Assembly: GCA_001931875.2 (NCBI GenBank)
Contig: MSJH02000481.1
Location: forward strand, 1 to 19,020
Direction of reading: 5' to 3'
Origin: Byssochlamys sp. IMV 00236
Taxonomy: Eukaryota; Ascomycota; Eurotiomycetes; Eurotiales; Thermoascaceae
Length of the DNA: 19,020 nucleotides
The notes beneath the pieces were generated by a model, which did no database searches, was not told where the DNA came from, and saw nothing but the letters and a program-made list of their open reading frames with translations. The stretch's first letter is position 1. The number at the start of each line of letters is the position of its first letter. Shown in pieces: positions 5,539 through 19,020 of the stretch. A program made the position numbers and the translations under genes.

Positions 5539-8268
5539 TTAAGCACCTGTGCCGTACTTGCTCTTCCACACTTGTTCCATCTTTTCATCAATTCTAGTAA
5601 ACAAATATTCTGCACCACCCAAAACATGACCAGGAAGAATATCCAAAGTGAACTGATCAGGGATATTACGAGCAGGTGCATTCAATTGACGACACATACT
5701 GTCCGAAGTCGCGGGCATAAAGGGTGAAACCAAAGCTGATAGGAGGTAAATCAGGTTAGCGGCAGATGCAACAACAGCGTCACATTTAGGTCGACTTTCA
5801 TCAAATAAGGCATTGCTCAAGTTAGCTTCTTGAAGGTATTGATTACCACGAGCAGAGAGTGCCATGACGGTACCGAGTGCAGCTCGGAGTTTGACAGCTT
5901 CCATTTGCTCAACGAACTGCTTCAAAAGAGCGTTCACATCCTTGAATAAATCTGTTTCTAATTGGCCATTGAAGTCTGTCTTGGGAATAACACCATCGTA
6001 TTTGGCAAAGATAAAACGAATAGCTCGGTTAACAAAGTTACCAAAGTTGTTTAACAATTCACTGTTGTTCTTGGTGATGAATTCGCTCCATGTGAACATG
6101 GAATCGCTGGATTCGGGGCGAACTGACAAAAGATAGTAACGCCAGACGGAAGGAGGAATACCCGTTTCCTTGGCGTTGTTGCCAAACACACCCACGTTAC
6201 GCGACTTGGAGAATTTACCGCCTTCGTAATTGAGATATTCTGAATTGAAATAATTAGCCGTATACTTCACATTAGAATACTGTCTATTTACCACAAGTGC
6301 TGATATGATTCACCTTGGTCCATTTCTCACCAGTACCGATTTGAACACCAGGGAAGATGACAGAGTGGAATGGAACATTGTCCTTACCCATGAATTGGTA
6401 CAACTTGACCTGTTCGGGGTTCTTCCACCACTTTTCCCATTCGTCCGTGTAGTTGGCCGTAATGCTTGGATAACCAATAGGAGCATCGAACCAGACATAG
6501 AACACTTTGTCTTCGTATCCTTCAAGAGGAACAGGCACGCCCCATTTGAGATCACGGGTGATGCATCGAGGCTTCAGTCCTTCCTTTAACCAAGATTCAG
6601 TAATGTGTATACCGTTGGCAGACCATCCACCTTCAGTGCTGGATTGTTTAAATGTCTCTTCAATGGCGGGCTGGAGCTTGGTTAAGTCGAGGAACAGATG
6701 GTTGGACTCCCTCAAGATAGGTCGGTTGCCGTCAAGCTTACAGCGAGGCTCAACGAGCTCAGTTGCATTGAGTAACTTTCCACATGCATCACATTGATCA
6801 CCACGGGCATCCTAATAACAGAATGAGTACCTTTAAAAGAAATGGCAGTTATTGCCTTACATTGTATTGACAAAGAGGGCAGATACCTTCGACGTAACGA
6901 TCAGCCAAGAAGCTTTGATTGGCAAAAGTCAGCTTTTTATAATTATCGAGAGAATGAACTTACCGATGGCATTGTTCACAATACAATTGAGTCATAGATT
7001 CCTTGACAACATTACCATTTGCATAATTCTTCTTAAACATGTCTTGAACGATTTCAGTCTGACGCTCAGTTGTTGTTCTTCCAAAGAGATCAAAGGAAAG
7101 ATCAAACCATTTGTAGACTTCAGTATGAATTGCATTATATTTGTCACAGAGTTCTTTGCATGATACGCCTTCTTCCAATGCCTTTGTTTCAGTGGCTGTA
7201 CCGTATTCATCTGTACCACAAAAGTAAGCTGTGTTGTATCCACGAGCACGACAATATCTCGCAAATACATCTGCACTGAGAGTTGAACCAATGATGTTAC
7301 CCAAGTGAGGAACATTGTTGACATAAGGAAGAGCAGAGGTGATCATGATGTTGCGTGCACCTTCTTTAGGAAGAACTCTATTGTTCCTCAACTATTAGTT
7401 TCCCTTTTCTTCTCCTTTTTATCTTTTTCCTCCCCTTACTTGACGTTTTTATCCACAGACTTAGTAGCGACATTCGTGTTGATCTTTTGAGTTGCAGGAT
7501 TGACTTTTGGCTTGGGAATTTCCTTTGTCACCTTCTTTTCGGCATGACCTTGCTTTTTTGACTTTGTTCCCTTGGAGTTCTGCGTAACAAATGAGTCATA
7601 ACACATCCTGACTTTTTACTATTTATTTACGGACCTGTTCCTTGACATATTCAACTGCTGCGGTTACTTTAGTATTCTTGGAAACAATCTCGAACCAGGC
7701 AGCCAAGAGAGGGTATTTGCTAGGTTCTTTGAAAGAAGCAAATGCTTCGACAAGTGCACCGTAATAGATGACATCCAAAAAGCCAACATCGTCGGATACC
7801 TATGCAAAAAAGGGTGTAAGGGATAAAGAAAATGCTTAAAGAGGATAGATTACCTTGGCAAATAAGTTTCTGTACTTGGCCAGAGTCTCTTCGACTATTT
7901 GGAACGCCTGATCGAGTCTTCGCTTGATAATGAATGGACTAATAACAGTTTCTTCCTTTTCGATCACAGAGGACTGTAAGATAGATTCGAGAGAGACATC
8001 AAAACGAGTGGCGTTCAAGAGATACCTTTTTTTTAATAACAAAAAGAAATGAGATATGTATGACTCAAGGTGCTCAACACACTTACTTGACAGCAGCATT
8101 CGCGTCAGTCAAAGAGATTTCGTCTGATAGGACCAAACTGACGTGTTCACCAGGAACCTCATTTAATTTAATATCCTTTACTTTGGCAGCAATATGAATC
8201 TTTAAGGCATTGGCAAATGGCTTGGTGTTGGGCGCCAGTTTAGGCAAGGTAAGATTTAGTTTAGACAT
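5539..8268 (-). CDS. MES1: Cytosolic methionyl-tRNA synthetase with N-terminal GST-like domain
   Basis: Eight exons on the minus strand: 8268-8087, 8025-7854, 7799-7635, 7579-7440, 7386-6964, 6912-6861, 6811-6292 and 6239-5539, encoding 784 residues. All seven introns are GT-AG (49-61 nt) and phases agree at each join. The enzyme attaches methionine to tRNA-Met using ATP. Residues 1 to about 175 form a GST-like appendage, as in yeast and animal enzymes. A Lys-rich linker follows (about 175-220), then the class I catalytic core with the HIGH-type motif HLGN at 247-250, two CxxC-type zinc knuckles (about 357-405), and the KMSKS-type motif KFSKS at 560-564. The helical anticodon-binding domain ends the protein ([15 protein letters not shown]). 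Similarity to yeast Mes1 is close throughout the core, so the assignment is firm. The gene is complete. Confidence 0.96.
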
Positions 8269-9223: not shown

Positions 9224-11325
9224 TTAATTTCTCTTGCGTTTGCCAGCAACTGCAGAACCTTTGAGACGAGAATGGAGGACTTTCTTTTTTTCATCATCAG
9301 GCTTGACCTTATTTCTATTCTTATTCTTAACGTTGGCTGTTTCATAGTAATGGACACCAACTTTCCCTTTCTTTGGAACTTCAGTTTCATTATTATTAGT
9401 TTTGACCTTCTTTGCTGGTTGCTCTTCCACTTCATCTTCTTCTTCCTCTTCCTCTTCTTCTTCATCATTATTACCGCCTTCATCTTCACTCAATTCAAGC
9501 TCACTGTCAATCCCCTGTTCTTCTTCATCTTCTTCTCCTTCGATCACAGGAGCCTTAACGACAGGACCTTGTTCACCAACAACATCTTCGAATACTTCAT
9601 CCCAATCTGTTGTTTGCTTGGCTGCAGACTTTGTTGATTTCTTATTGGCAGCTTCCTCTTCCTTCTTTGCATTTTCTTTAGCGCGTTCTTCTTCAATTAA
9701 TTGAGCATTATTAGCCAAGTCGTCTTCCATGTACTCTGCAGTCACATTGATCTTTCCAAAGATTTGCTCCACGCCCAGCTTGCGTTTCTTCTTTTCTTCT
9801 TCTTGTTCCTCAGTTAAAGGTTCAACAGATTCAGGAGGTGGAGTATAAAAGGGAATACGACCACGAAGCCAGTCATGGAGCACCATGATGGACACGTTAT
9901 GAATATCAGGCTCACCCTTTTTCAGCAATTTACCCGTCTTACGAGCGATCTGTTCGAGGAAATCTGTAGAGTCTTCCCATCCTTGGAGGCCATAAGTTCT
10001 CTTTAGGTATTCAGGTCTCACACGTTCCAAGATGGTAGGAATGGTATCTTCAGGAGAAGCCATCTTTTCTGCACGAACTGAGCCCTTAAGAATGATGTCA
10101 ACTTCTGTATCATCTGAGTTGGGAGGCACCACACCAGGACAGTCAATGAGATAGATACGCTTCATCAATGTGATATACTGCCACACTTTAGTTTCTCCTG
10201 GAATAGGAGCCACGGAACAGACCTTTTTGGATTTTAATGTGTTGATGATGGATGATTTGCCTGTGTTGGGGTACCCAATAAAACCAACAGAGATTTGCTT
10301 TCTGTCACTGTGAAGGGTAGCGAACTGACGTAGGAGTTGAATAAGTGAACCCTTACCGAAGGAGTTGTTGATAGATGCGTGGAAGGCAAGTGTGGGTGCA
10401 GACTGAGAAAGATGGGATACCCAACGAGCTGTTACCCAAGTAGGCACAAGATCACATTTGTTGAGAACAAAGATGAGTTGCTTGTGAGGCTTTTCTTTTC
10501 TAATAAAGTTTTCTACATTTCTACAACGAGTGCCGATAGGATCACGAGCGTCAAGGACGTGAATGATGACATCTGAAGAATCAATAACTTTGTACAATTC
10601 GTTCCAGATACGCTTGGATTGACCTGCTTGAAGATACCAAGCACGACTAGCATCAGTATAATCAGATTCTTTGTTGGCTAAAAGACTTGAATCCTTGTCC
10701 GATTTATAATTTTCTATAAAGAGTATTTAGTTTCTTTTGCTAAATTCATCCCAATTATAAATTTACCATGTGTGTCATCTACTCTAGACATCAACTCTTC
10801 CATAGATCCAATCTCAATCTTGGGCTTCTTTCTTTGCGCCTTTTTGCCAAATGTATTGGAAAATGGATCTGTGTCGAGAATATGCATGCGTGTGTGCTTT
10901 GTAGCGTCTTGCAAAAGTGACATGGGCAGCTTATTTTGTTTTAACAGTACCTGATAAGGATCACTCACTTTGGCACCAAGGTTTTCTCTAAACTGTTCTA
11001 GAGCCTTTTGACCAATGACTCGGGTATTACCTAATACAAGTCAATATCTCCCTTCAATAGAGTCTTACGGATGTTAATTACCAAACCATTTTCTATTAGG
11101 TGCAACTCTAGCAACTTTTGCTTCTGAACTTTGGTATTCGGCAGCTTGAACGATCTTGCCTTGAGAATCTCGAATGGCTTTTCCACCCTTCAGCATATTG
11201 ATGTATTTGATCTTTTTGGCATCTCTGTAAAAGTTCTCTCCCTTTACTCTCATGTTCTTGGCACGATCGTCGCCACCAGCCTTGTCTCTGGTGACTCTCT
11301 GCTTTTCCTTCTTGTATTGTCCCAT
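9224..11325 (-). CDS. NOG2: Nucleolar GTPase NOG2/GNL2 (60S ribosome assembly)
   Basis: Exons 11325-11082, 11030-10767 and 10713-9224 on the minus strand encode 665 residues. The introns (51 and 53 nt) are GT-AG. Nog2 is a circularly permuted GTPase acting on pre-60S particles in nucleolus and nucleoplasm. The permuted motif order is visible: DARDP at about 224-228, NKCDLVP (G4) at 254, GYPNTGKSS (G1) at 316-324, PGETK (G2) at 341-345 and DCPGVV (G3) at 360. The basic N-terminus with WFGNTRVIG, formed across intron 1, is the NGP1NT domain. The start [10 protein letters not shown] follows an in-frame open stretch with no family similarity. The C-terminus has an acidic run (mostly Glu, about 565-600) followed by a Lys/Arg-rich tail ending GKRKRN, a likely nucleolar signal. 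It is longer than yeast Nog2 (486 residues, from memory) and closer to animal GNL2. Confidence 0.96.
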
Positions 11326-15854: not shown

Positions 15855-18800
15855 ATGTCTTTAAATCAGTGGAGACAATTCAACTTTTTTGATAAGCAGC
15901 AAGTAACAGACTCTAATGATCATGGAAAGACTCCTGCAGTATTTCAAGTACCTTCAAGTCATAATTGAGTAAAAACAAGTTCCCATATAACCATTCATAT
16001 AGAAACATGACCTCTTGGTGTTTACAGCAGGAAGAGGACAAATAGCAGCAGCAGATATCCTTTTAATATACTGATATTATATATAATATGAGCATACAAC
16101 TGATTATCCTTAACTACTACGTTTACATAGTTCAGGCAATGTTCACATTATAGATCGTGCCTTCAAATCCAGAATGTTCATAGCCTATGATGGCGGACGT
16201 GTTACTCATTTAAAGCAGCTTAAGCAAAAGAATATTCTTGTCACGATTGGAGTAAGTTATATCAATGTTTCTGTTGATCGATATCTAACATATTATGCTT
16301 TTTCCCTGTGTGAGAATAGGAGGATGATACACAGTCTGGCATACCCATACTCAAGTTCTGGGATCTGGATACACTAAAGTCAACAGAAGTATCGGATGAT
16401 ATCATTATACCTACACTCTTACGAACCATCAAGATACAACACGGGGGAAAACCATATCCAGTAAGGGATAGCATAAAGTTTGACGATAATGTATCTCACA
16501 AGTCATACAGGTATCTACATTCGTCATCTTGGAAAACATGTCACAGTGTGCTGTTGGGTTGGCTAATGGCGTAGTGATTTCGATACGCGGTGATTTATCA
16601 AAAGATAAGACGGTTAAACAAAAGGTAATCTATGAAGGCGATGAGCCTATCACTGGATTAGGATTTCGTGAACAAACCAAGTCAACTATCTTGTTTATTG
16701 TTACAACCAACAATATCATGTCCTACAACACATCTGCCGCAAAGCCTACTGTGGTAAGCATTTATACAATAGGGTATAGGGTCGTGTCCTGACTTACGGT
16801 ATCTGAATATTATCAGACCATACTTGACGAACAAGGTTGTGGGCTTGGATGTGCAGTCATGAATGATCAGCAAGAAATAGTGATTGGTCGTGATGAAGCC
16901 ATCTACTTTTATGATCCAACTGGAAGAGGACCTTGTTTTGCTTATGATACTCCCAAGTCATCATTAACCTGGTTTAAATCAAATTATCTAGTCATCGTAT
17001 CTCCTCCTGTTACAACATCCTCTGCAGGAACGCGCAGCTCACTTCATTTTAACTCATCGAAAAGGACAATAGCAAGCTCAAATGAACTAACCAAGGTGGC
17101 CATCTTTGATACGGCTAATAAATTTATTGCACATGTAGGCACATTCATGGGTGGTATTCGAGGAATATTTTGTGAGTGGAATTCTATTTGGATTGCTTGT
17201 ACGGATGGCAGGGTAAACTAATGATATGTGGAAAGGGCATCCTTTGTACTAAGAATATATACAGCTTTACCGTTTGGATGAGAAAGATACTCCTACAAAA
17301 TTAGAGATACTATTTAAGTTAAATCTTTATGTCTTGGCCATCAATTTAGCTCACATGCAAAAATATGATGATACCAGTATCGCAGAGATATTCAAAAAGT
17401 ATGGTGACCATTTGTATCAAAAGGGTGATTATGACGGTGCAATGGAACAGTATATAAGAACTATAGGACAATTGGAGCCTTCATATGTGATTCGAAAGGT
17501 GAACAACAACAAAGTGTATTTAGAATGCATAGTTATGCTTATAGAAAATACATAGTTTTTGGACGCTCAAAGGATATACAACTTGACAAATTATCTTCAA
17601 GAACTCCATTCTAAAAGCTTGGCTAATACCGATCATACGACTCTGCTATTAAATTGCTATACAAAACTAAAGGATTTATCTCGACTTGACCAGTTTATCA
17701 AGGTAAATATAAAAATACTTAACAGCACTTCATAGTTACTTATACCATTGATCAGACAGACAACGACCTCAACTTTGATCTTGAAACAGCTATTAATGTC
17801 TGCCGACAAGCAAGTTACTATGATCATGCTGTTTATCTTGCAGAAAAATTCCAAGAGCATGGTATGTACCTTGATATCATAATTGAAGATATGAAAAAAT
17901 ATTCTGCCGCTTTGGCCTATATTCGCAAACTGGGTCCACATGAAGCAGACCGACATTTACAAAGATACAGTAAAACGTTGTTGCTTCATTTACCTGATGA
18001 GACCACTGATGTGCTCTGTGAACTTTGTACTGGCACTCTTGGAAGTGGCATCAACAACAACAGCAACAGTAACGAGTCCCCAACGTCAAGTATTGCTCAC
18101 AACATCACTGCGAAAGCATTATTATCCAATCTTCCGTTTGCAGGCAATGAAACAACCTCACTTCACTCTGAAACGACAGAACAGCGCAAGAACGTGGTAC
18201 ACAGTCGCCTAAGTTATGCACCGCCTTCTCCAAGAAAGTTTATGCCTGCCTTTGTTGATCGTCCAGATCACCTTACTCGATTCTTGGAGACAGTGTTTGA
18301 AAAGTTATGGAGGAATAATGGCGATATAAAGTCGCCTAAAGGTCAAGAAGAACGCAAGTCAATTTGGAATACGCTCTTAGAACTGTATTTGATGAAGTCC
18401 AACAAAGAGTCTCGTCAAAAGGCATTAGCATTGTTGAAGGATGAATCAGTTGATTATGACACCAACCAAGCGCTTGTACTTTGTCAGTTGAAGCAGTTTG
18501 ATGAAGGGATCGTTTACTTGTATGAGAAAACAGGCATGTATACGGATATCTTACATCATTGGATGGAAAAGGAGTCAACAGAACGAGTTATTGAAGGCGT
18601 ACGAAAATATGGGTAAAGGAGCAATGTTAAAGCATGTACACGCTGCTTACTTACTAATGAATCTGCTTTTTAGTCCTAAAGATGCTTCCTTATATCCCAT
18701 GGTCTTATCTTACTTTTCATCTTCACCTGAAGTTTTAGCCAAGTCAAGGCAGGAATTGCTCTCAGTGATGAAGCATATAGATGAAAAGGACCTGTTACCT

Positions 18801-19020
18801 CCCATTCAAGTAGTTCAAGCACTTTCAAGATCAAATGTGGCAAGTATTGGCTTGATCAAGGACTATATTGGTAAAAAGATTGAATATGAGCGAAAGGAAC
18901 TGAAGCAGGTAAGCCAAGGCACTCCAACACTCTTTATGACTAACAATAAATGTAAACATAAAGAATGACGAGTTAATCGAGAGTTATCGTCATGAGACTG
19001 AGAAGCGTAGGAAAGAGATT
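15855..19020 (+). CDS. VPS11: VPS11, HOPS/CORVET core subunit (3' partial)
   Basis: Exons 15855-15947, 16003-16054, 16127-16251, 16320-16460, 16511-16753, 16817-17212, 17265-17498, 17556-17702, 17756-18612, 18674-18908 and 18964 onward give 860 residues in the window. Vps11 is a class C Vps protein that scaffolds HOPS and CORVET tethers in fusion at endosome and vacuole. The start MSLNQWRQFNFFDK is the family N-terminus. An N-terminal beta-propeller follows (FIAYDGGRVTHLKQLKQKNI; SGIPILKFWDLDTL), then an alpha-solenoid with a clathrin-heavy-chain-type repeat from about 350 (YGDHLYQKGDYDGAMEQYI; LPPIQVVQALS). A Ser/Asn/Thr-rich insertion occupies about 573-630. The C-terminal coiled coil begins at the window edge; the RING-H2 domain lies beyond it. 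Nine introns are GT-AG (50-68 nt); intron 2 is AT-AC and described separately. Assignment is secure. Confidence 0.95.
16055..16126 (+). other. AT-AC U12-type (minor spliceosome) intron of VPS11
   Basis: The intron begins ATATCCTTTT, matching the U12-type donor consensus, and ends TTTAC. TCCTTAAC, the U12 branch-site consensus, lies at 16108-16115, with the likely branch adenosine about 13 nt before the acceptor, within the usual U12 range. Removing 72 nt joins ...GRGQIAAA to DSSGNVHIID, the sequence expected of Vps11, through a codon split after its first base (G|AT). No GT dinucleotide occurs between 16022 and 16120, so no ordinary donor can replace it, and read-through hits TGA at 16072-16074. 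It is the longest coding intron in the window and the only non-GT-AG one. Confidence 0.9.

Follow-up and report, generated by a model that had tools for sequence, protein, structure and literature searches.

Gene Model and Host

The window, by which we mean the whole stretch of DNA analyzed here, is contig C480, 19,020 bases in length. Its plus strand carries the VPS11 (PEP5) gene, modeled as 11 exons up to the contig end, whose joined translation of 860 amino acids is free of stop codons; most of exon 9 matches the Pfam family TPR_PEP5_VPS11 (E = 2.5e-37). Nine of the ten introns in this span are GT-AG introns of 50-68 nt. The features of the gene are:

15855..19020, plus strand: VPS11 (PEP5) gene, 11 exons, running off the contig end
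15855-15947, 16003-16054, 16127-16251, 16320-16460, 16511-16753 and 16817-17212, plus strand: exons 1-6
17265-17498, 17556-17702, 17756-18612, 18674-18908 and 18964-19020, plus strand: exons 7-11
15948..16002, plus strand: intron 1, GT-AG, 55 nt, major type, given for comparison
16003..16054, plus strand: exon 2, encoding KHDLLVFTAGRGQIAAA and the first base of a D codon; matched in intact homologues
16055..16126, plus strand: intron 2, a predicted AT-AC U12-type intron, 72 nt, phase 1
16055..16064, plus strand: predicted U12-type donor ATATCCTTTT, matching the donor rule RTATCCTT
16107..16114, plus strand: predicted U12-type branch site TCCTTAAC, branch A at 16113
16125..16126, plus strand: AC acceptor, 13 nt after the branch A
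16127..16251, plus strand: exon 3, the second and third bases of the D codon followed by SSGNVHIIDRAFKSRMFIAYDGG...

For the boundary of exons 1 and 2, acceptors near 16027-16030, paired with a donor at 15948 or 15958, were dropped in favor of 15948-16002, which is supported. Elsewhere in the window, Pfam matches identify a methionyl-tRNA synthetase, an MMR_HSR1 GTPase, a DEDDh_C-domain protein, and C2H2 zinc-finger exons; the coordinates listed for these other genes are 5542-6811 minus, 9227-10726 minus, 224-1045 plus, and 1764-2635 minus.

Among the best 120 of 2271 proteins listed, the closest agreement over 90% of the query is with a model from Rhizopus microsporus var. microsporus, to which the VPS11 product is 98% identical; over 69% of the query it is 99% identical to another R. 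microsporus model. The organism that bears this gene is therefore likely to be R. microsporus or a very close relative.

An AT-AC Intron in VPS11

Intron 2 starts with ATATCCTTTT and ends with TTATCCTTAACTACTACGTTTAC, so that its terminal dinucleotides are AT and AC. U12-type branch sites follow the consensus TCCTTRAC and lie close to the acceptor; TCCTTAAC, at 16107-16114, fits this consensus, is complementary to GUAAGGA in the assembly's U12 snRNA candidate (see below), and places its A 13 nt before the last base of the intron. The motif [AG]TATCC[TC]T has six matches on the two strands of the window, and the one at 16055 alone is followed by CTTRAY 20-110 nt downstream.

The predicted join, 16054/16127, reads GCAGCAG followed by ATAGTTCAGG, and the spliced exons 2 and 3 encode GRGQIAAA-D-SSGNVHIIDRAF in a single frame, a block present in intact homologues. 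Left unspliced, the intron introduces stops into the GRGQIAAA frame. The only GT dinucleotides around the intron are at 16018, 16020, 16121, and 16130. Of single GT-AG models, only 15869-16130 and 15958-16135 were found to keep the frame open from the start codon, and both delete the conserved GRG block. A sequence-only reading of this DNA had proposed a U12-type AT-AC intron at 16055..16126 in the VPS11 gene of a fungus, with consensus donor, branch site, and an AC about 13 nt past the branch A, no GT between 16022 and 16120, and restoration of the Vps11 frame on excision; the gene model, the match to R. microsporus, the three signals, the positions of the GT dinucleotides, and the comparison with intact homologues agree with it throughout. 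We consider it highly probable (roughly 0.94) that 16055-16126 is a U12-type AT-AC consensus intron in the VPS11 frame that is likely removed by a minor spliceosome predicted in the host.

By the mechanism that we propose, U11 would recognize ATATCCTTTT and U12 would pair with TCCTTAAC, leaving A16113 bulged; U6atac would then take the place of U11 at the donor, and U4atac and U5 would complete the catalytic spliceosome. Joining of the exons at 16054/16127 would yield a functional Vps11 of the HOPS and CORVET tethering complexes.

Ten AT-AC Introns in One Assembly

The assembly (47.4 Mb, 840 contigs) was searched with two patterns, whose donors began with RT and thus permitted GT starts. The first, RTATCCTT-N28-58-TCCTTRAC, gave 16 matches against 5 for the reversed pattern, and the second, RTATCCTTT-N20-80-CCTTAAC, gave 13 against 8 for its control. 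Ten matches are common to both, all of them AT-AC and all with ATATCCTTTT...TCCTTAAC, compared with about 0.3 expected for the strict motif pair under a first-order model of window composition. In each, joining at an AC 11-22 nt past the branch A keeps a frame open; the phase is 1 in seven of them and 0 in the other three. Because an alternative AC or AG within 40 nt also keeps some frame open in all ten, the exact acceptor is in every case a choice. Among three of the ten tested for stops between donor and branch site, VPS11 has no open frame on its own strand and DCP2 and LSM12 have one each; since a stop-free frame runs from donor to branch site in these two, stops alone do not exclude retention there.

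Homology backs the join in seven of the ten introns, VPS11 included, and open frames alone in the other three (L003, L009, and L011). The joins spanned by Pfam domains are:

DCP2 box A: domain spans the join, 1.4e-32
RNB: domain spans the join, 1.6e-14
LSM12 LSM domain: domain spans the join, 1.9e-9
Gaa1: domain spans the join, 4e-31

A REC102-like gene (L040, G000:C125:5500-11000) has two AT-AC introns, which start 358 nt apart, and its spliced product aligns with a Blakeslea trispora protein at 45% identity, gap-free at both joins. That Blakeslea protein scores 27.5 bits against REC102 (cut-off 27), and the corresponding R. microsporus model, P0137, has no family match; the gene is possibly a meiotic recombination factor. 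Two further AT-AC introns adjoin Sds3-like exons (22.9 and 23.6 bits, under the Pfam cut-off of 25.4), and L003 is assigned to no gene. These two genes, L042 (C150) and L043 (C394), each have the intron in phase 1 and, by eye, in a similar place, and the intron possibly predates a duplication of the gene.

Several other matches were set aside. Four with GT starts from the first pattern (L010, L013, L015, and L018) all end in TCCTTGAC and were read as coding coincidences, because each falls within an open frame of 202-807 codons on the opposite strand. Two with AT starts (L016 and L017) have longest open frames of 53 and 82 codons. From the second pattern, L019-L021 are one sequence, ATATCCTTTGAAAGC...CCTTAAC, found in identical form on three contigs and probably a repeat. 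That the strict set is entirely AT-AC is the least expected part of the analysis; it derives from ten introns and exact motifs, and GT-AG minor introns with looser signals may also be present.

The assembly itself appears to be mixed. The loci of the ten introns and of the U12 gene have 35-39% GC and lie on contigs of 12-48 kb, and several other loci have 48-55% GC, four of them on contigs of 248-914 kb. By locus, L015, L017, L018, L023, and L046 are examples near 50%, against 35-39%, a Rhizopus-like value, for L001-L009, L011, L012, and L014. A second, diverged VPS11 lies on C622; one aligned piece of it covers residues 23-146 of an intact Glomus model, the AT-AC junction included, and is intronless. 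From the GC split and this diverged intronless copy, it is likely that the assembly holds a second organism whose VPS11 lacks the AT-AC intron.

Components of the Minor Spliceosome

A candidate U12 snRNA gene was found at G000:C170:1789-2015 on the minus strand. It matches Rfam RF00007 at 49.4 bits (E = 2.1e-7), under the gathering score of 53, and aligned with E = 5.9e-8 in a second scan. It contains GAGUAAGGA, for pairing with the branch site, an Sm site AAUUUUUG, and the loop CCUACUUU, and it folds better than shuffled sequences (z = -2.57). Between its Sm site and 3' hairpin the gene (L002 1501-1727 minus) is longer than the Rfam model by about 69 bases.

For U11, U4atac, and U6atac, the assembly gave no Rfam match at E 0.001, with 39-48 of 1031-2958 first-look candidates scored and the control genomes silent. 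A 27-base U6atac pattern had no match in the assembly with up to 3 mismatches, and the single match to a gapped U6atac pattern (L025) was unlike an snRNA on inspection. When the Rfam U6atac search was extended to E 10 it returned 11 matches, the best at 21.2 and 18.6 bits in loci of 45% and 48% GC; matches this weak also turn up in 11 of the 14 control genomes, of which the ones named are prokaryotes. Six of the 11 loci were re-scanned, none was accepted, and we regard them as unconvincing. PF18036, which we take to be the 25K protein family, had no match in the assembly, in a search whose controls were silent too. The earlier suggestion that the intron implies a U11/U12/U4atac/U6atac machinery is thus borne out only in part: an snRNA gene is present for U12, and in searches of limited sensitivity U11, U4atac, and U6atac were not found.

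The failure to find three of the four minor snRNAs is one of two points in favor of the best-surviving alternative, in which the major (U2) spliceosome excises the AT-AC intron, as it does a few AT-AC introns in other organisms; the other is that U2-dependent AT-AC introns exist. Against this stand the exact agreement of donor and branch site with the U12 consensus, the recurrence of the identical pair ten times in the assembly, and the presence of a U12 snRNA gene in the same assembly. To our knowledge, U2-type AT-AC introns are not expected to share the branch site TCCTTAAC 11-22 nt from their ends. We judge removal of the VPS11 intron by the major spliceosome to be very improbable, and removal by the minor spliceosome remains the predicted and likely route.

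VPS11 Models in Relatives

Conservation in relatives was read from protein models, with clade placements assigned from species names. All of the best 120 of the 2271 proteins found were classified by script. For the 34 Mucorales models, in which some species are represented twice, the script scored the AT-AC junction as truncated in 22, deleted in 2, carrying insertions in 2, and intact in 8; reading moved P0017 out of the intact class, so that 27 of 34 are disturbed. Junctions 5, 6, and 7 are intact in 34/34, 34/34, and 33/34 of the same models, and junctions 1, 3, and 4 share the truncation. Among these best 120, the script also scored the AT-AC junction as disturbed in 3 of 4 Umbelopsidales, 16 of 20 Glomeromycotina, 6 of 30 Mortierellomycotina, and 1 of 24 Basidiomycota models, but in neither of the 2 from Basidiobolus nor in the single models from Endogone, Calcarisporiella, and Bifiguratus; three further sequences are intact there. 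Script and reading differ in both directions: two Mortierellomycotina models (P0074 and P0083) were scored as deleted, yet the join reads normally, and P0017 and P0058 were scored as intact, yet carry the H mark described below.

Most of the models checked in close relatives are truncated or garbled at this junction, probably because gene finders do not recognize AT-AC introns. This is not the sole cause: junction 3 is flagged as well in Glomeromycotina (14/20), so this region is either indel-rich or badly modeled in that clade. In two public R. microsporus models the protein begins with MFIAYDGG, in exon 3, past the intron, and the join is not used. The rule that every truncated model starts at the next Met after the intron fits Rhizopus (MFIAYDGG) but not all of them. 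Seventeen of the 34 Mucorales models start near residue 140-148, and because 5 of 6 intact relatives examined have a Met between the AT-AC junction and that start, these truncations are only consistent with the intron and do not prove it.

More specific traces are intron ends that appear to have been translated. Forty-five VPS11 models match a pattern covering the block as far as AD or SD. In five of them (Acaulospora, Racocetra, Gigaspora margarita, and two from Actinomortierella ambigua) IL comes next and the protein departs from the normal sequence; the others go on with RS, SS, and the like. IL is the translation of the donor side of the AT-AC intron, exonic G followed by ATATCCTT. Basidiomycota naturally read ADIHGS at this junction, and DI alone is therefore not diagnostic, whereas DIL is. 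On the acceptor side, four models (Parasitella, Dichotomocladium, Umbelopsis vinacea, and Rhizophagus clarus) have H in place of D before the SSG-type block, which is what one would see if C, the final base of the intron, shared a codon with the exon bases AY; an Actinomortierella model, P0089, is a misfit, with A where H is expected. Nine Mucoromycota models (five with IL, four with H) thus show what look like translated intron ends at one and the same codon, and the intron is for this reason likely to be old. We infer an AT-AC intron at the same D codon and phase in Mucorales, Umbelopsidales, Glomeromycotina, and at least one genus of Mortierellomycotina; judged from these protein models, it has probably held its codon and phase across much of Mucoromycota.

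The relatives also bear on the possibility that exon 2 is skipped in the real VPS11 mRNA by way of a single long GT-AG intron, the AT-AC signals being decayed relics. Two open single GT-AG joins do exist, and the block is skipped in the public models P0007 (Mucor lusitanicus) and P0013, but these differ from each other in their join. The block is kept in intact models from Mucorales, Mortierellomycotina, Glomeromycotina, Basidiobolus, and one Umbelopsis, and a decayed relic would not retain three exact signals. We find skipping of exon 2 even harder to credit than removal by the major spliceosome, and the reading of 16055-16126 as a U12-type intron is preferred.

Public LSM12 and REC102-Like Models

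Similar traces are seen at the sister introns. Fifteen relatives of LSM12 were found and 14 were read. The predicted join is present in five, including R. microsporus P0122, which reads LVLD-CSS, exactly the AT-AC join. Another five (Apophysomyces P0128, Lichtheimia ornata P0129, and P0132-P0134) read through as DIL, again the translation of G and ATATCCTT, and four lack sequence at the join (P0123 from R. microsporus, P0124 from R. azygosporus, P0130, and P0136). At the REC102-like gene, the first join is missing from R. microsporus P0137, which also translates the last part of the gene's second intron and again shows H at its end, before PREF; P0138-P0140 run on into the first intron, giving ISFLLY.

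That the VPS11 signals are a chance resemblance, or an assembly error inside a coding exon, could draw on the fragmented and probably mixed assembly, but is scarcely credible against ten copies where about 0.3 would be expected and against public R. microsporus LSM12 (P0122) and REC102-like (P0137 and P0138) models, from contigs longer than the present ones, that join at, skip, or read into like introns.

Significance and Comparison with Known Systems

For a long time fungi were considered to have almost no minor introns. The ten near-identical AT-AC introns of a single Mucorales genome, which lie in VPS11, DCP2, an RNB nuclease, LSM12, Gaa1, the REC102-like gene, and others, form a compact set on which to test why this subtype might persist longer than the GT-AG one. 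They also offer a possible explanation for the missing N-terminus or conserved block in most of the Mucorales VPS11 models checked, and the DIL and H residues provide a route to missed AT-AC introns from protein databases alone. We put forward tentatively, with the odds somewhat against it as a whole, a broader proposal: that the minor spliceosome of R. microsporus is devoted to a few near-identical AT-AC introns, strict GT-AG minor introns having gone; that the VPS11 member has been fixed at one codon since the Mucoromycota ancestor; and that much of the set is invisible in public annotation, so that published counts are too low.

Minor introns in Rhizopus and Phycomyces are already published (PMC2846911; PMC10639083), and those parts of the two sources that we draw on agree with the statement in the sequence-only reading that the minor spliceosome persists in some Mucoromycotina. 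What is apparently new is the VPS11 locus, its probable deep conservation, the damage to annotation, and the all-AT-AC strict set; a limited library yielded no literature that pairs VPS11 with minor introns, AT-AC introns with Mucoromycota, or minor introns with Mucoromycota gene models.

In the portions consulted, Larue and Roy 2023 (PMC10639083) report 205 minor introns and all four minor snRNAs in Rhizophagus irregularis and include R. microsporus among the species of the Figure 9 legend. They used annotated genomes, allowing that many minor introns may be unannotated, and the word Vps11 does not occur in the main text.

According to the sections of PMC4133162 used here, Lichtheimia corymbifera has four of the five AT-AC splicing RNAs, U4atac being missing, whereas the present assembly yielded U12 only, with its approximately 69 extra bases after the Sm site. 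The same sections describe basal fungal U12 with an atrophied third stem and a U6atac highly divergent in its second half, which fits the weak or missed Rfam matches here. Apophysomyces assemblies are described in PMC5604411 as having U6atac, without U4atac or U12; this is not easily reconciled with functional AT-AC splicing, unless those two snRNAs were missed.

A close likeness is also seen to the U12-type introns of other Mucorales in PMC2846911, the source of the donor rule RTATCCTT, in whose examined parts VPS11 is not named. By two methods, 1 AT-AC and 2-3 GT-AG U12-type introns are given there for R. oryzae, and 8-9 AT-AC and 8-12 GT-AG for P. blakesleeanus. Both of these species thus have both subtypes, whereas all ten strict matches in the present assembly are AT-AC.
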